Of a DNA stretch of 34,563 nt, positions 7,665 through 34,563 are shown in pieces (within the stretch, counting starts at the first letter, position 1; each line of letters starts with the position of its first letter). The position numbers and the translations under genes were made by a program. The DNA comes from Candidatus Omnitrophota bacterium (GTDB lineage Bacteria > Omnitrophota > Gorgyraeia > Gorgyraeales > Gorgyraeaceae). The stretch covers positions 1-34,563 of the forward strand of contig JAHIPS010000083.1 in assembly GCA_018902915.1 (NCBI GenBank), given 5' to 3'. The notes under the pieces are model-generated. The model did not search any database. It was not told where the DNA came from and was given only the letters and a program-made list of their open reading frames with translations.

Positions 7665-7809
7665 AGAACTCTTGGAAATACTGGCATGTCCTGTGTGCAA
7701 ATCAGGCGTTGAGTTAAAAGAGGGCAAGATCTGCTGCATGAATTGCAAGAAAAAATATCCTATTAAAGACGGCATCCCCGTGATGCTGATCGAAGAAGCT
7801 GAATCTTAA
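7651..7809 (+). CDS. Trm112-like small zinc-ribbon protein (UPF0434/YcaR family)
   Basis: 52 residues (51 if the second of two adjacent ATG codons, 7654, is used). ELLEILACPVCKSGVELKEG, then CCMNCKKKYPIKDGIPVML, gives the two Cys pairs of the zinc ribbon and the signature YPIKDGIPVML ending. Trm112-type proteins are small partners that stabilise methyltransferases in eukaryotes and archaea; the role of bacterial YcaR is less clear. It overlaps the end of the flippase-like gene by 14 bases and uses a GGAGAGG ribosome-binding site (7641-7647). A palindromic repeat follows. Confidence 0.88.
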   Translation: MMIDKELLEILACPVCKSGVELKEGKICCMNCKKKYPIKDGIPVMLIEEAES

Positions 7810-7819
7810 TCGTGCCATA

Positions 7820-7875
7820 CATGTTCAAGGCTTAGCCTTGAACATGCAACTGTTCAAGGCTAAGCCTTGAACATG
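7820..7875. repeat. Double palindrome, AAGGCTTAGCCTT family, copy 1
   Basis: Two near-identical palindromes: CATGTTCAAGGCT/T/AGCCTTGAACATG (7820-7846) and TGTTCAAGGCT/A/AGCCTTGAACA (7851-7873). They are reverse complements of each other, so the block can also fold as one long hairpin with about 25-bp arms. It fills the gap between the Trm112-like gene and aroQ and touches the aroQ ribosome-binding site. A second copy lies at 11755-11812. Confidence 0.8.
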
Positions 7876-7888
7876 CAAGGAGGCTATG

Positions 7889-8329
7889 ATGGCGGCAAAG
7901 ATACTAGTGATACACGGTCCCAATCTAAATCTGCTTGGCAAAAGAGAACCTGATATCTATGGAAATATTACAATTGACGAGATAAATAAAAAACTTAAGG
8001 CGCTCGCAAAGAAAAAAAATGTTACTTTGGACGTGTTTCAATCCAACCATGAGGGTGAAATCGTAGATAAGATAGGTAAGGCCAAGAACAAGTACAAGTC
8101 TCTGCTTATTAATCCGGCAGCATATACCCATACGAGCGTAGCAATACGCGATGCCATCATGGCCACAGGCATACCTACGATAGAGGTGCACCTCTCAAAT
8201 ATATACTCCCGAGAGGATTTCAGACATACATCTCTAGTCGCATCTGTAGCAAAGGGCCAGATATCAGGTTTTGGAATAGATAGTTATATTTATGGCCTTG
8301 AGGCAGCGATTAAACTCGCCAAAACATGA
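7889..8329 (+). CDS. aroQ: Type II 3-dehydroquinate dehydratase
   Basis: 146 residues. Of two adjacent ATGs (7886, 7889) I prefer 7889, five bases after AAGGAGG (7877-7883). It catalyses 3-dehydroquinate to 3-dehydroshikimate in the shikimate pathway as a dodecamer. Visible motifs: [19 protein letters not shown] with the catalytic Tyr, [27 protein letters not shown], and [17 protein letters not shown] with the catalytic His. Length matches the family. It begins a five-gene run, aroQ-M24 peptidase-efp-accB-accC, seen in this order in many bacteria. aroB lies 17 kb downstream. Confidence 0.96.
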
Positions 8330-9390
8330 ATTACTTCAATAGAACACGTAGGCTGATAGGGGCTCTGAAAGCAAAGAAAGTAGATGCCCTGCTTGTAAGA
8401 AAAAAACAAAATATCGCTTACCTCACAGGGACAAAAGGCGAGGACGCGCTGCTTTTTGTCTCAAAAGGCGGGAATTTCCTCGTCACTGACTCGAGATACA
8501 GGGAAGAATACGCAAGGTCGCCTAAAAACTACCAGCTCATAATAACTAAAGATAAAAATATATACAGTCTTATCGACGAGGCCTGCAGGAAGACCCACTC
8601 GAGGCGTATAGGATTTGAATCAAACAGCATTTCGCATGCGGGCTACACTGCCTTAAAAAAGAAATTGAAAAACAAAAAGCTCGTACCCATAAGCCGTGTC
8701 GTGGAAGACCTCCGCATGATTAAAGATAGCGAGGAGGTCAGGCGTATCAAAAAGGCTTGTAAAGACGGCTCTAGCATAATGGATTATGCGATCAAATGCG
8801 TGAAGCCAGGCCTTACTGAAAAACAGGTGAAATCCAGGATAGAGGAGCGCGTTATGAAAAAGGGTATGAAGACCGCGGATTTCGATATAATAGTCGCTTC
8901 TGGTAGAAATGCGTCCATGCCTCACGCCTCCAGTTCGAATAAAAAGATCAAAGGCGGCGAAATGGTCGTAATAGATTTAGGTATAATGAATTACGGGTAT
9001 AATTCTGACTTGACAAGGACTGTTTTCTTAGGTAGAATTGACCGCAAGTCTTTGGCTATATACAACACTGTCAGAGAGGCGCAGACGCGGGCGATTGGAA
9101 AAATCAGGCCATGTATCCGATCCAGCTATATAGATAATATATCCAGGCAATATATAAAGAGTGAGGGGTTTGGAAAATACTTCATACACAGCCTTGGCCA
9201 CGGCCTGGGCATGGAAACGCATGAAAGACCAGGCATCTCCGCTAGCAGCAAAACGATCCTCCAGAAGAACATGGTCATAACAATAGAGCCTGGCATTTAT
9301 ATCCCTGGGTGGGGAGGCGTGAGGATAGAGGACGTGGTGCTGGTAACTAAAAACGGCCGCGAGATATTGACAAGATGCAGATATCGCTAA
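8326..9390 (+). CDS. M24 family Xaa-Pro aminopeptidase/dipeptidase
   Basis: 354 residues with an ATGA overlap with aroQ. Residues 1-125 form the creatinase-like N-terminal domain; residues 135-354 are the pita-bread catalytic domain. All five dinuclear-metal ligands are present: D217 (VIDLG), D228 (NSDLTR), H292 (SLGHGLG), E321 (TIEPG) and E335 (RIED). It probably removes N-terminal residues ahead of proline in the cytoplasm. The position directly upstream of efp is common and has led to frequent co-annotation with EF-P. The last 16 bases overlap efp. Confidence 0.93.
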
Positions 9391-28570: not shown

Positions 28571-28876
28571 ATGAAAATATTGACATATGATCAATTTATT
28601 AGCCTATGGAATGCGGTTTATGGCGAACCCATGGAAGAAAATATCCTTCTTTTCAAGACCTTGTTAGACAAAGGTTATGCTGTCAGGATACTTTCCGACA
28701 GCAACCCTATTCATAAAAAATTAGCGCTGTCTTTGCTCAAAAAAGAAGGGAACAGGTGCTTCTTCCCAGATCTTACCAGAGTTAGCCACAGTTTACCCGA
28801 TTTACCCTTCTGCGCCTACAATATGACTACAGTAAAATTACCAAAAATTATTCTAATAAAAATACTTGACAAATAG
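28571..28876 (+). CDS. Small ORF, possible fragment of a HAD-like hydrolase
   Basis: 101 residues from ATG 28571, ten bases after the foldback element; the in-frame extension through that element is not believable as protein. YAVRILSDSNPIHKKLALSL recalls motif II of HAD phosphatases (a Ser following a hydrophobic strand), preceded by a helix (EENILLFKTLLDKG). The nucleophile motif DxDxT is absent, and no domain is complete. It could be a truncated gene. The ORF ends inside the promoter/operator of the XRE gene. No clear ribosome-binding site. Confidence 0.4.
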   Translation: MKILTYDQFISLWNAVYGEPMEENILLFKTLLDKGYAVRILSDSNPIHKKLALSLLKKEGNRCFFPDLTRVSHSLPDLPFCAYNMTTVKLPKIILIKILDK

Positions 28877-28917: not shown

Positions 28918-29109
28918 ATGGTCGTAAATTTAAGCAGTAAATTGAAGTTGAAGAGGAAACAAAAGGGTCTAACTCAATTGGAGTTAGCCAGGAAGGTTGG
29001 CGTTAGTGAAAGCTATATCTGTCAGATAGAGAATGGTAAGATGATTTCGATTAAGAAACTCGATAAAATGGCAAAGGCATTAGGGTGTGAACCAAAAGAT
29101 ATGCTATAA
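28918..29109 (+). CDS. XRE/Cro-CI family helix-turn-helix regulator
   Basis: 63 residues, a single HTH domain: SKLKLKRKQKGLTQLELARK, then VGVSESYICQIENGKMISIK and KLDKMAKALGCEPKDML. The five-helix Cro/C1 pattern is complete. A TGAGGA ribosome-binding site lies six bases before the ATG. It is the first gene of a three-gene cassette with an MNT nucleotidyltransferase and a HEPN protein, and probably represses that operon through the palindromic operator upstream. It is AT-rich compared with the genes before 28.3 kb. A transmissible toxin-antitoxin setting is likely. Confidence 0.85.
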   Translation: MVVNLSSKLKLKRKQKGLTQLELARKVGVSESYICQIENGKMISIKKLDKMAKALGCEPKDML

Positions 29110-29124
29110 TAGAAGGGCAAATTT

Positions 29125-29418
29125 ATGCTTACAAAAAATGATATCGTAAAGACAATTCAAGAAAATATGAAAGAGATAAAAAGCTATGGCATCAAAAAGA
29201 TAGGGATTTTTGGTTCTATAGCAACAGCTTCTCAGACTGAGCAAAGTGATATTGATATCCTTGTTGAATTCCAAAAGGACAAAAAGGCATTCGATAATTA
29301 TATGGAGCTCAAATTCTTTTTAGAAAAGTTATTTAATTGCAAGGTTGATCTTGTGATTGAAGAAGCATTAAAATCAAGAATCAGAGATAGCGTGCTAAAG
29401 GAAGTTTCCTATGCGTGA
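29125..29418 (+). CDS. MNT-domain nucleotidyltransferase (MntA-type antitoxin)
   Basis: 97 residues, minimal nucleotidyltransferase. GIFGSIATASQTEQSDIDIL contains the GS (G30-S31) plus DxD (D42, D44) signature of polymerase-beta-fold NTases. In MntA-HepT systems the antitoxin AMPylates a tyrosine of the HEPN toxin to silence it. The partner gene overlaps by eight bases, as is usual for this pair. An AGAAGG ribosome-binding site is present. Confidence 0.92.
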   Translation: MLTKNDIVKTIQENMKEIKSYGIKKIGIFGSIATASQTEQSDIDILVEFQKDKKAFDNYMELKFFLEKLFNCKVDLVIEEALKSRIRDSVLKEVSYA

Positions 29419-29740
29419 TTATAAACTTTACTTAGAGGATATATTACAGGCGATTGATAAAATAGAGAAATATACTAAAGGTTTGAATGCTGACAGGTTG
29501 AAGAAGGAAGACTTGATAGTCGATGGAGTTGTTAGAAACTTAGAGATCATTGGCGAAGCTGCAAAGAATATACCCCAGGATATAAAGAAGAAACACCCTG
29601 ACATTGAATGGAAAAAGATCGCTGGCCTGAGAGATATATTAGCACATGAATATTTTGGCATAGATCTACAAATACTGTGGGATATTATTAAGAATAAACT
29701 CCCGGAATTAAAAACCAAAGTTACTCCTTTAATGAAATGA
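29411..29740 (+). CDS. HEPN domain ribonuclease toxin (HepT/DUF86 family)
   Basis: 109 residues, all helical. The RNase motif RX4HXY is intact: R74, H79 and Y81 in GLRDILAHEYFGID. IIGEAAKNIPQDIKKKHPDI is another DUF86 hallmark. HepT toxins cleave RNA (some act on tRNA) until AMPylated by the MNT partner at the motif Tyr. Overlap with the MNT gene by eight bases ensures coupled expression. All catalytic residues of both partners are kept, so this cassette appears functional. Confidence 0.92.
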   Translation: MRDYKLYLEDILQAIDKIEKYTKGLNADRLKKEDLIVDGVVRNLEIIGEAAKNIPQDIKKKHPDIEWKKIAGLRDILAHEYFGIDLQILWDIIKNKLPELKTKVTPLMK

Positions 29741-29762
29741 GTAAAAAATTTTTACGTATATA

Positions 29763-29822
29763 CTTTACAAATAAGTTAAGTAGGATATATTTTTTAATCT
29801 AAAACTTGACAAATAGGTTAAG
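29763..29822 (+). promoter_or_regulatory. Second promoter region with two more copies of the XRE-type operator
   Basis: CTTTAC-AAATAA-GTTAAG (29763-29780) overlaps a -35-like TTTACA (29764-29769), followed 16 bp later by TATATT (29786-29791). A further exact copy of the operator, CTTGAC-AAATAG-GTTAAG, lies at 29805-29822, between the predicted transcription start and the AAGGAGG ribosome-binding site of the next ORF. This arrangement suggests that the integrase-like gene downstream was under the same repressor as the toxin-antitoxin cassette. Confidence 0.55.
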
Positions 29823-29836
29823 TAAGGAGGCTGGCC

Positions 29837-30264
29837 ATGAATCTTATGACTCCAGTGGAAACAGCAGGGGTATTGCACCCGGTTAAACTTGGCGGTATCA
29901 AATATTGCAGGGAAGATTTGGATAAGCTGATAGAGGACAGGAGGGTTTACTTATTCATGATGAAAAGACCATTGATGAGTTTATCCCAGCCTTCATTGAC
30001 TATACGGCTAAACGCACTAGCCATGGAACTGTAGATAGATATTCTCGCAGTATTAAGATATTCAATGATTACCTTAAACAGAGCTACCCAAATCTCGTAG
30101 TATTAACAAGCATATGTACATCTCATATTGAGAACATAACCTATCGCAGAGAGACAGTTAGTATTAAGACTGTCAATAATGAACTCAGAGCCATTAAGAG
30201 GTTCTTAAATGTAGCTATATTCAACATGGAGAGAACCCACGCCAACCTGATATATTTAGCATGA
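29837..30264 (+). pseudogene. Remnant of a helix-turn-helix / tyrosine recombinase gene (frameshifted, no catalytic domain)
   Basis: The first part, from ATG 29837 behind a strong AAGGAGG, reads MNLMTPVETAGVLHPVKLGG then IKYCREDLDKLIEDRR, a shortened HTH_17/excisionase-like domain. Around 29935-29960 the frame shifts (+2/-1) and continues as DEKTIDEFIPAFIDYTAKRT, then RYSRSIKIFNDYLKQ, LTSICTSHIENI and VNNELRAIKRFLNVA. This is the N-terminal core-binding (SAM-like) domain of phage-type tyrosine recombinases. It stops at 30262-30264 without any catalytic domain (no R-H-x-x-R/Y region). It is probably the decayed integrase that brought in the cassette. Confidence 0.7.
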
Positions 30265-31010: not shown

Positions 31011-31185
31011 TCAATGGTGCGGAAGGTGGGAGTTTATTTGGCCCTTTTTACGCATCCCAATACAAATCAACAAAATAGACGTAATTTGCTTAATTTTCAA
31101 TAAGTTACGTCTCTTGCCAAGACTTACCTCTATCTACCGCTAACTACCTATTACAAGCAATCTATAGTGGAAATATAGTGGAAAT
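31011..31185. mobile_element. Attachment-like block A (copy 1 of a 175-bp direct repeat)
   Basis: Starts with TCAATGGTGCGGAAGGTGGG, which on the minus strand reads as the 3' end of a tRNA: T-stem end, acceptor strand CTTCCGC, discriminator A and CCA. Next come a conserved hairpin AGACGTAA/TTACGTCT (31077-31084, 31105-31112) and a run of degenerate TTACCTCTA/CTACC motifs, then a perfect tandem 11-mer ATAGTGGAAAT (31164-31185). It matches 34098-34272 over its whole length without gaps, with 13 mismatches by hand count. The tRNA end plus arm-like repeats fit an att site of a tyrosine recombinase; a whole tRNA cannot be folded here. Confidence 0.65.
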
Positions 31186-31274
31186 TTTTTAATCCGAAAA
31201 TTAGGAAGTGATATTATACGAAATCTTATATAGTTAATAATGAAGAATATTGACAGGGAGACTAATTTTTATCC

Positions 31275-31334
31275 TTGACATATTAGAGAATATATTGTAT
31301 ACTTTAATACAGAGAATTGTATAGATATATACAA
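31275..31334 (+). promoter_or_regulatory. Promoter and palindromic operator of the DUF6036-like nucleotidyltransferase operon
   Basis: TTGACA (31275-31280), an exact 17-bp spacer, TATACT (31298-31303). Just downstream of the expected start site lies the palindrome TTGTATA-GATA-TATACAA (31317-31334). No Shine-Dalgarno sequence precedes the ATG at 31343, so the leader is short. The operator beside a strong promoter is typical of self-repressing toxin-antitoxin operons. Confidence 0.65.
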
Positions 31335-31342
31335 ATAATTGT

Positions 31343-31915
31343 ATGAATAAGTACAGAATAGATAGACAGGAATTGTTGAATACGATTAGCGGATGGGATG
31401 GCTTTCTTAAGAGAAAAGTCCATTTGATTGCTTGTGGCGGCACGGCTTTGACACTTTTAGGAATAAAACCATCAACTAAGGATATTGATTTAATTGTGCC
31501 GAATTTAAGCGAATACAAATATCTTATGTCTACTTTAGAACAACTAGGATATAAACCCGCAACTGGCTCAGGATGGAGGAGAGGAGATGGTTTTGTTTTT
31601 GAATTCTTTAGGGGCAAGGCAGTCCATACTACAGAATTATTAGAGTCGCCGTTAGATAACAGAAACCACAGTTTGATTAAGGAATTAAGCTATATCTATT
31701 TAGGAGTTCTTAATTATTACGACCTAATTGTTAGTAAATTGTTTAGGGGAAGCAGTGTAGACATAGAGGATTGTCTTGCTTTAATAAAGGCAAAGAAGAA
31801 AGACATAGACTTGAAATTATTGGAAAAGCGGTTTAGGGAAACAGCTTCTTTCGATGTTTCAGAAGACAGGGTAAATAAAAACTTAGAGCATTTTTTGAGA
31901 ATTATTAAAGAATGA
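31343..31915 (+). CDS. DUF6036-like nucleotidyltransferase (AbiEii/MNT superfamily)
   Basis: 190 residues. LIACGGTALTLLGIKPSTKD then IDLIVPNL gives GG (32-33) plus DxD (D47, D49) of the polymerase-beta nucleotidyltransferase fold, in the GGTAL...TKDIDL form seen in AbiEii-like and DUF6036 proteins. A conserved ELSYIYLGVLNYYDLIVSKL and DIEDCLALIKA follow, also typical of that group. It is not an MntA of the small type. The next gene starts ten bases downstream, behind a GGACAGGA ribosome-binding site, and probably encodes its partner. Function inferred from family: a toxin, or an antitoxin that modifies its partner, or a tRNA-modifying abortive-infection enzyme. Confidence 0.8.
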   Translation: MNKYRIDRQELLNTISGWDGFLKRKVHLIACGGTALTLLGIKPSTKDIDLIVPNLSEYKYLMSTLEQLGYKPATGSGWRRGDGFVFEFFRGKAVHTTELLESPLDNRNHSLIKELSYIYLGVLNYYDLIVSKLFRGSSVDIEDCLALIKAKKKDIDLKLLEKRFRETASFDVSEDRVNKNLEHFLRIIKE

Positions 31916-31925
31916 GGACAGGATA

Positions 31926-32594
31926 ATGGTTAATAAGAGCCTTTTGAAGAGATTGGGAAAGCTTGGCTATCCCTTATTTGAAACAGAAGAGGCGCAGGAT
32001 GCTAATACTACATTGGCCGAAGTAGTTCAGAGCAAGGATCTTCGTCTATGGGAGGGATTTCCTGTTGTATTGGCTAATAGTGCTGAGAGAGGGCTTTTTG
32101 ATTATGAGATGGTTAAATGGCACCTTAAAAAGCCATTTGATAAACTTAATTTAGGTCCATTATTGGTAATGTCCCTTGCGCTTTACAAGGTAATAAATCT
32201 AAGGTTTTCATGGGCGGATAAATTTTATAAAAATTTGAATAGAGATGACAAAAAACGGTTTAGTAGTCTTTTGAAAAAATTAAAAAAGAATGAGGATTTT
32301 AAGGTTTCAGGACGTCTTATGTCCAGTCAAAGATTGAAAGTTACATTTGATAATTATTTTAACCAGGAGCGTTCAAAACTTAATGACCTGCTTTCTGTAA
32401 AGGAAGAATTAGGGCTTGAGTACGCATTATCTCAGGTTTTTTCGCCAAAACAAAAGGAATTGTTTTTAAAGAAACTTAGACATGAAAAATTGACCAAGAC
32501 CGAAAAGGAATATTTTTCAAGGGTTGTAAAAAAGAAGGCCTTAGCACTGGCCAATTCAGAATTACATCGTTTATCTCAGAGATTGTTAGAATAA
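31926..32594 (+). CDS. Uncharacterised partner of the nucleotidyltransferase, C-terminal HTH-like
   Basis: 222 residues, mostly helical, Lys-rich, no membrane segment. The N-terminal ~70 residues contain LGKLGYPLFETEEAQDANTT and LRLWEGFPVVLANSAERGLF. The C-terminal 50 (FSPKQKELFLKKLRHEKLTK, TEKEYFSRVVKKKALALANS, ELHRLSQRLL) have the spacing of a sigma-70 region-4-like helix-turn-helix, a segment I associate with MNT-linked proteins, but I cannot name a family for the whole. It may bind DNA (the operator upstream) and be the antitoxin/regulator, or be the target of the nucleotidyltransferase. Ten bases from the upstream gene and closed by block B, so the pair is self-contained. Confidence 0.6.
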   Translation: MVNKSLLKRLGKLGYPLFETEEAQDANTTLAEVVQSKDLRLWEGFPVVLANSAERGLFDYEMVKWHLKKPFDKLNLGPLLVMSLALYKVINLRFSWADKFYKNLNRDDKKRFSSLLKKLKKNEDFKVSGRLMSSQRLKVTFDNYFNQERSKLNDLLSVKEELGLEYALSQVFSPKQKELFLKKLRHEKLTKTEKEYFSRVVKKKALALANSELHRLSQRLLE

Positions 32595-32657
32595 TGAACC
32601 TTAAGAGCATGACCTGTCTAACCTAGTTAGATTTGGCAGGTTAGACGTACAGATTTC

Positions 32658-32825
32658 TGGTGCGGAAGACGGGATGGAATACGTAAAATCCCTGATTTAC
32701 GCACAAATTCCCTAACCCCTTAAAACATCAATAGTTAATTACCTTCAGTTGCCTCAAGTTAACTTCCGTTAAATAGCCATTTTGGACAGGATTTTGGCAA
32801 TTTGCGTGCCAAAAGCGTGCCAGAA
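32658..32825. mobile_element. Attachment-like block B
   Basis: Begins TGGTGCGGAAGACGGGAT, the reverse complement of a tRNA 3' end (ATCCCGTCTTCCGCACCA), sharing the 11-base core TGGTGCGGAAG with blocks A and C. It then diverges: there is a CGTAAA...TTTACG hairpin (32681-32697 region), short TTACCTTCA/TTAACTTCC repeats and, at its end, a tandem 11-mer GCGTGCCAAAA + GCGTGCCAGAA (32804-32825). The architecture equals that of blocks A and C although most of the sequence differs. It separates the nucleotidyltransferase cassette from the PhoU-like cassette. Confidence 0.55.
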
Positions 32826-32851
32826 TTACCATTTAAATTTATATTTTCATC

Positions 32852-32880
32852 TTGCCTATATCACCCCACAGTAGTATCAT
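32852..32880 (+). promoter_or_regulatory. Probable promoter of the zinc-ribbon/PhoU-like cassette
   Basis: TTGCCT (32852-32857), 17-bp spacer, TATCAT (32875-32880), about 40 bases before the ATG at 32923. It stands at the right end of block B. It is weaker than the promoters at 28866 and 31275. Confidence 0.4.
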
Positions 32881-32922
32881 AATACGTAGCTTAATTACAC
32901 ATAAACCACGAAGGTGCAGGAT

Positions 32923-33270
32923 ATGTTCTGCCCAAAGTGTAAAGCTGAATATAGAGAAGGATTTGATACATGCGTTGATTGTAATTTACCATTGGTAGAT
33001 TACAATCCAGAAGAACCTCCTGCGGAGTATATAAAGTTTAAAGAGCTGTTGCACACATTTAACCCAGCAGATATTGCCTTTATAAAATCAATATTAGATT
33101 CGCATAATATTACATATTACGTCCAAGGCGAAAATTTTCTACAGCTAAGGCCTTTGGTTCAACCTGTGGGCATTATGGTTGATGAGGAACAGTTTGAAGA
33201 AGCGAAAGAGCTACTGAAGGATTTCAGAGGAAGATTTACTGGTTTATCTTTGCGAGAAGGTGGGCACTAA
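32923..33270 (+). CDS. Zinc-ribbon plus DUF2007-like signalling domain protein
   Basis: 115 residues from ATG 32923 (an in-frame GTG lies three codons earlier; AGGTG sits six bases before the ATG). The N-terminus has a four-Cys zinc ribbon: MFCPKCKAEYREGFDTCVDC. From about 40 on the sequence (ELLHTFNPADIAFIKSILDS, HNITYYVQGENF, VGIMVDEEQFEEAKELLKDF) matches the DUF2007/putative signal-transducing fold, a PII-like or ferredoxin-like domain. Such proteins occur widely without known ligands. The PhoU-like gene follows 59 bases later, and the two sit alone between blocks B and C. Confidence 0.75.
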   Translation: MFCPKCKAEYREGFDTCVDCNLPLVDYNPEEPPAEYIKFKELLHTFNPADIAFIKSILDSHNITYYVQGENFLQLRPLVQPVGIMVDEEQFEEAKELLKDFRGRFTGLSLREGGH

Positions 33271-33328
33271 TATAAGGCAATCTTGGCATAACGCTGGATT
33301 GTTTTTTATTTTAAGGGGGATTAAAGTT

Positions 33329-33967
33329 ATGACAAATTTAAATAAAGCTGAGTTAAGAGAAATTGTTTCATTGAGGCAAGAGACTATAGAAATGTTAAAG
33401 CGGGTTCAGATAATGTTTCGTACCAGCTTCGATGGTTTAATGAAAAACGATATTGATATCTTAAAACAAGTGCTTAAGGATGAGACAAAGATTAATAAGG
33501 CTTACAGTAACCTGACTACCTCAGCAATAGAAAGTTCTAAAAAAAAGTTATCAGCTGAAGCCAAGAACATAGTTGTAGATTTAGTGAACATTATCTCTGC
33601 AATTGAGAGAATGGGAGATTTGTGCATAAGCCTAGTAGAACGAATTGAGTATAAAATTAGCGAAAAGTTATTATTTAGTGAAGCGGCAGTACAAGAATAC
33701 AAGGAGTTGTGTAATAATATAGACAAGATTTTATCAAATACAATTGAGGCGATAAACACTAACGATAAGAAACTCGGCAAAAAGATTATAGAGAATAAAT
33801 CACGCCTCTATGTATTAATAAAAAAGAGTCGAGCTAACCATATTGATAGGTCAGCAAAAGGAATTTGCGATGAATGGGCAAAAATTCGGTATCTTGATAT
33901 GTTAGATTTTATTAAAGAGATTGTAGACCATTGCGTAGAGACAGTAGGTAAGCTGATAGGGAAATAA
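33329..33967 (+). CDS. PhoU-like domain protein
   Basis: 212 residues from ATG 33329, eight bases after AAGGGGGA; the upstream in-frame extension is not supported. The protein is all-helical with one or two three-helix PhoU-type repeats: MKNDIDILKQVLKDETKINK, then IISAIERMGDLCISLVERIE, which matches the E/D-rich metal-binding signature ERxGD of PhoU and the C-terminal tails of Na/Pi cotransporters. PhoU proteins link phosphate transport to the phosphate-starvation sensor kinase. No pst, pho or Na/Pi transporter gene is nearby. A terminator follows its stop. Confidence 0.8.
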   Translation: MTNLNKAELREIVSLRQETIEMLKRVQIMFRTSFDGLMKNDIDILKQVLKDETKINKAYSNLTTSAIESSKKKLSAEAKNIVVDLVNIISAIERMGDLCISLVERIEYKISEKLLFSEAAVQEYKELCNNIDKILSNTIEAINTNDKKLGKKIIENKSRLYVLIKKSRANHIDRSAKGICDEWAKIRYLDMLDFIKEIVDHCVETVGKLIGK

Positions 33968-34011
33968 TTCCCGTAACGTGGCTGCTAAAAAGAGATTTGG
34001 TATATTAATTT

Positions 34012-34050
34012 AAGGGCAATCTGGAGCTATAGCTTTGGGTTGCCTTTTTT
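34012..34050 (+). terminator. Intrinsic terminator after the PhoU-like gene
   Basis: AAGGGCAA (34012-34019) pairs with TTGCCTTT (34040-34047, one mismatch), with an AGCTATAGCT palindrome at the tip, followed by a run of six T (34045-34050). It is the clearest classical rho-independent terminator in the window. Confidence 0.75.
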
Positions 34051-34097
34051 GGTTTAGTGAAGGATTAACTATGGTTATGGTCAAGTAGATTTTGTAT

Positions 34098-34272
34098 TCA
34101 ATGGTGCGGAAGGTGGGAGTTTATTTGGCCCTTTTCCCGCATCCCAATACAAATCAACAAAATAGACGTAATTTGCTTTGTTTTCAATAAGTTACGTCTC
34201 TTACCAAGACTTACCTCCATTTACCCCTAACTACCCATCACAATAAATCCATAGTGGAAATATAGTGGAAAT
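34098..34272. mobile_element. Attachment-like block C (copy 2 of the 175-bp direct repeat)
   Basis: Aligns base for base with 31011-31185, no gaps, with 13 mismatches by hand count. The tRNA-3'-end core TGGTGCGGAAG (34102-34112), the AGACGTAA/TTACGTCT hairpin and the tandem ATAGTGGAAAT (34251-34272) are all kept. Together with block A it brackets the two cassettes between 31.2 and 34.1 kb. Confidence 0.68.
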
Positions 34273-34284
34273 CCCTACCTCCCT

Positions 34285-34356
34285 GTCATTGCGAGGCCAC
34301 GAATCGGCCGCGTGCCCCGTACCTGAGCGAAGCGAATGGTACGGGGAAGCAATCTC
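34285..34356. repeat. GTCATTGCGAG...GAAGCAATCTC dispersed palindromic element
   Basis: Starts GTCATTGCGAGG and ends GAAGCAATCTC, common ends of a dispersed bacterial repeat. An internal hairpin with 9-bp arms, CCCCGTACC (34315-34323) / GGTACGGGG (34338-34346), surrounds GAGCGAAGCG. A second copy begins at 34545. Confidence 0.6.
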
Positions 34357-34369
34357 AAAAGGAGGGGCC

Positions 34370-34563
34370 ATGTTCAGTCCAAGATCCTTACTAAACTTCG
34401 CCATAGGTTTTCATACGTATATCTGGCTAGACGTCTACATCCTCAAAGAAACCCCGAAGGCCATTCTAATCATGTTCGACAACAGAAAAATCTGGCTTCC
34501 TAAATCGTGGATCGTGAGAATAAGACGAAGCAAAGGCGCCCTTTGTCATTGCGAGCGAAGCGA
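34370..34563 (+). CDS. Small hypothetical protein, 3' end outside the window
   Basis: 64 full codons are visible from ATG 34370, behind AAAAGGAGGGG. The product reads MFSPRSLLNFAIGFHTYIWL, then KAILIMFDNRKIWLPKSWIV, then RIRRSKGALCHCERS. KAILIMFDNRKIWLPKSWIV suggests a small conserved beta-rich protein with no function assigned. The last residues (CHCERS) come from a copy of the GTCATTGCGAG repeat at 34545, so the native C-terminus is probably just before it. It may be one of the small 'hitchhiker' genes of the accessory zone. Confidence 0.55.
   Translation, partial: MFSPRSLLNFAIGFHTYIWLDVYILKETPKAILIMFDNRKIWLPKSWIVRIRRSKGALCHCERS
34545..34563. repeat. Second GTCATTGCGAG element, cut by the window edge
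   Basis: GTCATTGCGAGCGAAGCGA, the start of the same element type as at 34285-34356. It is read in frame by the small ORF at 34370. Confidence 0.6.

Follow-up and report, generated by a model that had tools for sequence, protein, structure and literature searches.

A probable tandem array of non-autonomous integrative cassettes at tRNA-Leu(CAG) in an Omnitrophota bacterium

Why does a contig of a Candidatus Omnitrophota bacterium carry three short blocks that each open with what looks like the complement of a tRNA 3' end, with small sets of genes lying between them? The stretch in question (GCA_018902915.1, JAHIPS010000083.1; 34,563 nucleotides, hereafter the window) is one whole contig, C63, of a 1.8-Mb metagenome-assembled genome (MAG) that is 86% complete. 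The first-pass annotation, made from the letters of the window, had read the blocks, named A, B and C from left to right, as attachment (att) sites left by serial integration at a tRNA gene, each closing a two-gene cassette. Comparison with related genomes leads us to favour, as a fairly probable reading of the sequences, a tandem array of non-autonomous integrative cassettes at tRNA-Leu(CAG), moved by integrases supplied in trans and partly decayed.

The blocks and their tRNA target

The 11-mer TGGTGCGGAAG lies at 31015, 32658 and 34102, exactly as first described, and each copy opens a block that is closed by a tandem 11-mer. No other match occurs in the window, even allowing one mismatch (about 0.01 exact matches are expected by chance, and shuffled sequences average 0.55 at one mismatch). 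Searched through the whole genome with at most one mismatch, the core pattern TGGTGCGGAAGNNGGGA returned these three sites and C10:2074, which is the site of a second B block, and nothing more; its reversed control gave zero matches genome-wide. Blocks A (31011-31185) and C (34098-34272) form a gap-free direct repeat, for which our recount agrees with the earlier figure of 13 mismatches in 175 bp, and the repeat reaches 189 bp at 91% identity. Both are closed by two copies of ATAGTGGAAAT and block B by GCGTGCCAAAA GCGTGCCAGAA; as had been remarked, block B has the layout of the other two in a different sequence.

No tRNA was found near the blocks in the window. In Omnitrophota relatives, the 3' end of tRNA-Leu(CAG) is identical to the 17-mer core (17 of 17 positions in G001 and G006), which bears out the proposal of a tRNA 3' end, likely of Leu or Ser type, in its Leu version; the gene sits just upstream of smpB, on the opposite strand. 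Intact tRNA-Leu(CAG) stands at the end of the array in G001, G004, G015, G277 and others, and in the first three of these, further copies of the core block lie 1.3-7 kb from it on the same strand. Between congeners, the tRNA-smpB side is 85-93% identical, the sequence left of the core is unalignable, and the break falls exactly at the core (e.g., L100 7726 versus L101 1541). A halt of similarity at this point is just what site-specific replacement at the 3' end of a tRNA leaves behind. Moreover, cassette content at this locus differs between species, and hence the idea of a tRNA gene serving as a serial integration site, with cassettes that vary among relatives, has held up well. A clean empty site was not obtained from the pair G240 and G277, in which the tRNA side aligns from the core onward and the left flanks differ.

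Given these features, each of the three blocks would mark the left attachment end of a small integrative element, in a stack behind the tRNA-Leu(CAG) 3' end, and would be made of a crossover core (the tRNA 3' end), repeats that bind recombinase or accessory proteins, and paired 11-bp arm sites. A tyrosine integrase would join an excised circle to the tRNA gene by recombination between their cores; insertion would restore the tRNA 3' end, the former core would become the left end of the cassette just inserted, and units would pile up away from smpB as a result. The paired 11-mers would be bound by the arm domains of the integrase, and the internal direct repeats probably by an excisionase or by further integrase. 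Cassettes of the A/C type were most likely moved in trans by an enzyme like that of G006 (described below), and those of the B type by another integrase, while later deletions and recombination between cores would produce truncated and hybrid units.

Two other arrangements were seen at tRNA-Leu genes. In G038 (L108, 1732-2460), tRNA-Leu(CAG) is followed by a LAGLIDADG-like open reading frame (ORF) and then by the apparent 5' part of another tRNA-Leu beside smpB, which looks like a tRNA gene replacement tied to a homing-endonuclease-like gene. Members of other Omnitrophota families have a single extra tRNA-Leu 3' end about 150-180 bp from the tRNA, with a GC-rich insert resembling repetitive extragenic palindromes and no genes between (L144 1501-1665; L146, minus strand; L103 of G057; G091:C35:3610-3807).

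Integrases, arm sites and the unit left of block A

Two relatives, G006 (L098:7061-8095) and G018, carry an intact tyrosine integrase (Pfam Phage_integrase and SAM-like domains) followed by an arm pair, the core and the tRNA; G018 additionally has an HTH_17 excisionase-like gene. The arms of G006, AGTGGAAATATAGTGGAAAT, are those of blocks A and C, and the arms of G018, TTTCCTACAAT twice, are similar to those of a further block type, A'. Arms occur on both sides of the core: type A in the left blocks of the window and at the right end in G006, type B at both ends in G004 and G277. Elsewhere in the window's own and sister genomes, the G006 enzyme is the only tyrosine integrase with A or B arms downstream. 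The recombinases of the window's own genome comprise two that we take, from length and score, to be Xer-type, a 376-aa integrase on C94 and two integrase fragments. None of them adjoins A- or B-type arms, the G006 integrase as query found no relative in this genome at E < 1e-15, and no intact A/A' integrase was found there. Nor was a helper virus found among viral contigs: the 28 that contain the 17-mer core have it nearly always in tRNA genes and otherwise in unrelated contexts, and the exact A and B arm strings occur in two viral contigs each, all in unrelated coding or low-complexity contexts. The two integrase fragments of the own genome (L188 570-640 and L189 4230-4262, in integrase orientation) end in a different tandem 11-mer, ATGGACACCAT twice. 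It immediately precedes the 5' ends of tRNA-Met and tRNA-Phe and is another arm type, on tRNA 5' sides.

The first-pass annotation had missed a truncated fourth block (28759-28835) and an integrase remnant (29935-30260). Both belong to a fourth unit, at 28.76-31.0 kb, that precedes block A and that sequence similarity identifies as a decayed relative of the G018-type element. The toxin-antitoxin pair of this unit recurs in G001 inside the B cassette adjoining tRNA-Leu(CAG). Since a decayed unit with an integrase fragment stands before block A, the array was not always recombinase-free; the earlier description of att-bounded cassettes lacking a recombinase is right for cassettes 1 (1.64 kb, between blocks A and B) and 2 (1.44 kb, between blocks B and C) and does not extend to the left unit. 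Cassettes 1 and 2 have att sites at either end and no integration or transfer genes, with no integrase gene in either according to ORFs and the Pfam scan. Conjugation genes were seen in none of the units listed, and decay is visible in the left unit only.

B-type cassettes and competing explanations

Of the 384 genomes in the class, 9 contain B blocks, with families f1, f21 and f50 among them. We did not treat a B-block contig binned in family f31 (G048:C109, locus L092) as a further family, since its smpB is like that of genus g3 of the window's family (nearly that of G015) and the contamination of the bin is 8%; it is probably misbinned from that genus. The search of the blocks against this and related genomes that the first-pass annotation had proposed found homologues of block B on the own contig C10 and in G001, G004, G013, G015, G038, G048 and G277, and an alignment of nine such blocks has invariant core positions, a ACGCACAAAT-like stretch, four AGTTACCTTC-like direct repeats and the arm pair. 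A genome-wide scan for B arms recognised blocks in Omnitrophota only; matches in other phyla were not examined further. Six complete B units from at least three families end at tRNA-Leu or at its core (1.3 kb in G001, 2.3 in G004, 4.6 in G015, 2.3 on the G048 contig, about 1.05 in G038 and 7.3 kb in G277), and none of the six has an integrase; the integrase-less cassettes of G004 and G277 retain B arms at both ends.

Moreover, the B cassette with a PhoU gene (cassette 2 of the window) is also present in G038, a member of a different family, upstream of that genome's own tRNA-Leu(CAG) and smpB. The two copies are 85% identical in nucleotides over 716 bp and 83% over the block, and marker proteins are far apart (MurI of G038 is 57% identical to that of the window genome, and its SmpB 48% identical to that of a member of the window's family). 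At such similarity the PhoU gene occurs in 3 of the 384 genomes, the third, G183, having it away from any tRNA core. This comparison indicates that the integrase-less cassette moved by lateral transfer between families. Among A' cassettes, the cargo in G015 is an AbiEi/AbiEii pair, and the gene pairs in G002 and G010 are similar to it as judged by length and sequence resemblance only; the G015 and G002 cassettes are homologous from core to core (72% over 2 kb) at different array positions.

Two observations concern the surroundings of B blocks. Genes behind them often open with a signal peptide and an LRVP-like motif, their downstream parts being unrelated, e.g., a Pro_dh plus TIM fusion (L087, reverse strand, 7741-8586; L090 4065-6083; L091 13247 and 15979; L092 1574). 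B blocks also lie near accA and tRNA-Leu(CAA), whose 3' end is core-like (L087, the own C10, 2574-7354, and L093 6336-6712; for both, coordinates refer to the reverse complement). These copies may mark a second hotspot or, as in G015, belong to the far end of the same array.

For the B type, supply in trans best explains why units lacking an integrase retain their attachment modules and move from one family to another; for cassettes of the A and C type it is likely, and decay is also possible. Several points weigh against this reading. No B-type integrase was found, so that trans supply stays unproved. Cassette 2 has mismatched ends, B-type on the left and A-type on the right, and recognisable arms are absent from the right end of cassette 1 in the window. 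Decay is evident in the broken integrase and in truncated blocks (28759 here; others in G015, G048 and the own C102). Hybrid ends and truncated blocks together mean that recombination between units and erosion also go on. Finally, judging by the anticodons of the tRNAs found, an intact tRNA-Leu(CAG) is missing from this assembly, and the core pattern matches none of its tRNAs. The absence of the core from every tRNA 3' end, by which the first-pass annotation would have given up its proposal, is thus literally true here; it is explained by the lack of both tRNA-Leu(CAG) and the adjoining smpB, which was not found either, from an 86%-complete MAG. The array extends to the right end of the contig, where the sequence turns repetitive, and the simplest reading is that the intact tRNA-Leu(CAG) and smpB probably lie in the assembly gap to the right.

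Much of this could also be expected if complete elements had inserted at tRNA-Leu(CAG) and later lost their integrases, leaving an immobile fossil stack. The literature usually accounts for such arrays as stacks of elements that have decayed (PMC5704250), and the integrase fragment beside a truncated A' block, the hybrid cassette 2 and the truncated B blocks elsewhere all suit it. However, it does not readily account for six complete B cassettes in at least three families in which the block and usually the right arm persist with no integrase, nor for the B-PhoU cassette being shared by two families with an integrase in neither copy; a separate loss at each B copy is less economical, and we therefore consider it unlikely that relics make up the whole array, although it is the alternative that deserves the most attention. 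Going beyond the favoured reading of cassettes mobilised in trans, the B block could tentatively be seen as the mark of a dedicated non-autonomous family served by tyrosine integrases, comparable at a tRNA site to MITEs or CALINs: a module of about 170 bp that picks up anything from one to several genes, is always without an integrase and spreads across Omnitrophota families on the integrases of resident elements; we hold this stronger version to be possible rather than probable.

Two further explanations dispense with integration at the tRNA gene. The blocks might be dispersed regulatory or transposable repeats, such as promoters or leaders, with an incidental match to a tRNA end; a gene on the same strand always follows the block closely, and B blocks often precede the signal-peptide and LRVP genes. 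Such repeats would hardly match a local tRNA over 17 nucleotides at a synteny breakpoint in many species, nor would their arms recur at the opposite end by the tRNA, together with integrase genes, and the cargo behind one block type is unrelated; we regard this as very improbable. Co-oriented units of one or two genes that begin with a conserved recombination site and carry toxin-antitoxin cargo also recall an integron, in which the blocks would be folded single-strand attC-like sites for an IntI-type integrase. Against this, the core is identical to a tRNA 3' end, the arms are paired 11-bp sites, the single-strand folding of the blocks is ordinary (z from -1.9 to 0.05), and the integrases of the locus are of phage type, with SAM-like and arm-binding domains. 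Their closest solved structures are Xer-like, an IntI4 chain being merely a weak partial match. Hence, we give the integron-like reading the least credence of all.

Known systems and the features of the window

The cassettes had been called an unusual vehicle, which is only partly right: their small size and the conserved B module are unusual, but recombinase-less tandem att islands are a known class. Cis-mobilizable elements (CIMEs), which are decayed integrative and conjugative elements (ICEs) or integrative and mobilizable elements (IMEs), accrete in tandem with ICEs and IMEs, e.g., in streptococci (PMC5704250). Like the cassettes here, they are att-flanked, lack integration and transfer genes, stand in tandem at a tRNA 3' end and can be mobilized by a neighbour; unlike them, array units here are 1-2 kb long and hold one or two genes each, and B-type units were never seen with integrase or transfer genes. 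Among the ssrA-specific genomic islands of Dehalococcoides, 15 of 31 have no integration module (PMC3146451). They too stand in tandem between direct repeats that derive from the 3' end of a small-RNA gene, but they use tmRNA as target and a serine-family recombinase, in contrast to tRNA-Leu(CAG), tyrosine integrase features and 11-bp arm pairs. The additive flexible genomic islands of Methylophilaceae likewise have recurring 20-bp tRNA-Lys 3' ends with variable units from 330 bp up between them (PMC10872708); they belong to another phylum and tRNA, and the accessible part of that account describes no armed attachment module. According to the same part, Prochlorococcus tycheposons resemble our cassettes in being tRNA-targeted and cargo-carrying and in using a tyrosine recombinase, but they span 4-200 kb and have their own recombinase gene (PMC10872708). 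Clusters of attC sites lacking integron-integrases (CALINs; PMC11389934) offer a functional likeness, as small cassettes relying on an integrase encoded elsewhere; they are not homologous, since their attC sites, unlike the cores here, have no tRNA 3' end as their sequence and adopt a single-strand fold.

The array would thus represent a known integrase-less lifestyle in an unusually small form, and what sets it apart is the small cassettes and a conserved B module never seen here with an integrase. Our literature search, of incomplete coverage, returned no report of such an array in Omnitrophota. In this little-studied, uncultured phylum, accessory genes would be gathered via very small att-bounded cassettes at one tRNA-smpB hotspot, the cargo comprising toxin-antitoxin and defence-type pairs, secreted proteins and PhoU/DUF2007 proteins. 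The core with its pair of 11-bp arms is a precise, sequence-testable module for spotting such cassettes in metagenomes. The array also prompts the question whether cassettes that lack an integrase are mere decay products or a lineage able to maintain itself and spread.

Table 1. Features of the array and of the unit to its left, in window coordinates.
Feature	Position	Strand	Evidence
Truncated A'-type block, core end lost, arm pair CGCCTACAATATGACTACAG at 28813 kept	28759..28835	+	80-83% over 76-77 bp to A' blocks of G015, G010
HTH_3 regulator, cargo of decayed unit	28918..29109	+	Pfam HTH_3, E=2.6e-17
MNT/HepT-type nucleotidyltransferase-HEPN toxin-antitoxin pair	29125..29740	+	Pfam NTP_transf_2, HepT-like; 84% nt, 83% aa to G001
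Remnant of excisionase-like HTH_17 gene preceding the G018 integrase	29837..30034	+	86% nt to G018 over 29530-29867 and 29870-29942; intact G018 gene is HTH_17
Tyrosine integrase remnant, core-binding SAM-like domain only, catalytic domain gone	29935..30260	+	Pfam Phage_int_SAM_1; 61% aa over 95 aa to intact G018 integrase
Core of block A, complement of tRNA-Leu(CAG) 3' end	31015..31031	+	Pattern matches; tRNA of relatives
Block A: core, spacer, repeats, tandem 11-mer arm pair (31164-31185)	31015..31185	+	91% repeat of C; arms as at G006 right end by intact integrase
Cassette 1 gene 1, DUF6036 nucleotidyltransferase	31343..31915	+	Pfam DUF6036, E=5e-11
Cassette 1 gene 2, 222-aa protein	31926..32594	+	ORF; no match in Pfam scan
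Core of block B	32658..32674	+	Pattern matches
Block B: core, four AGTTACCTTC-like repeats, tandem arm pair (32804-32825)	32658..32825	+	Homologues in relatives
Cassette 2 gene 1, DUF2007 protein	32914..33270	+	Pfam, E=3.5e-11
Cassette 2 gene 2, PhoU-like protein, common to B cassette of G038 (other family)	33260..33967	+	Pfam PhoU; 85% nt, 81% aa to G038
A-type right end GATTTTGTATTCAA abutting core C, as beside tRNA-Leu in G006, G018	34084..34101	+	97% over 37 bp (G006), 33 bp (G018)
Block C: A-like core and block, arm pair (34251-34272); unit continues toward contig end	34102..34272	+	Repeat of A

The 222-aa protein of cassette 1 is the probable partner of the DUF6036 nucleotidyltransferase. 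Beyond block C, the contig finishes in repeats of the CATTGCGAG...GCGAAGCGA type (34285-34563), which are the likely cause of the assembly break.

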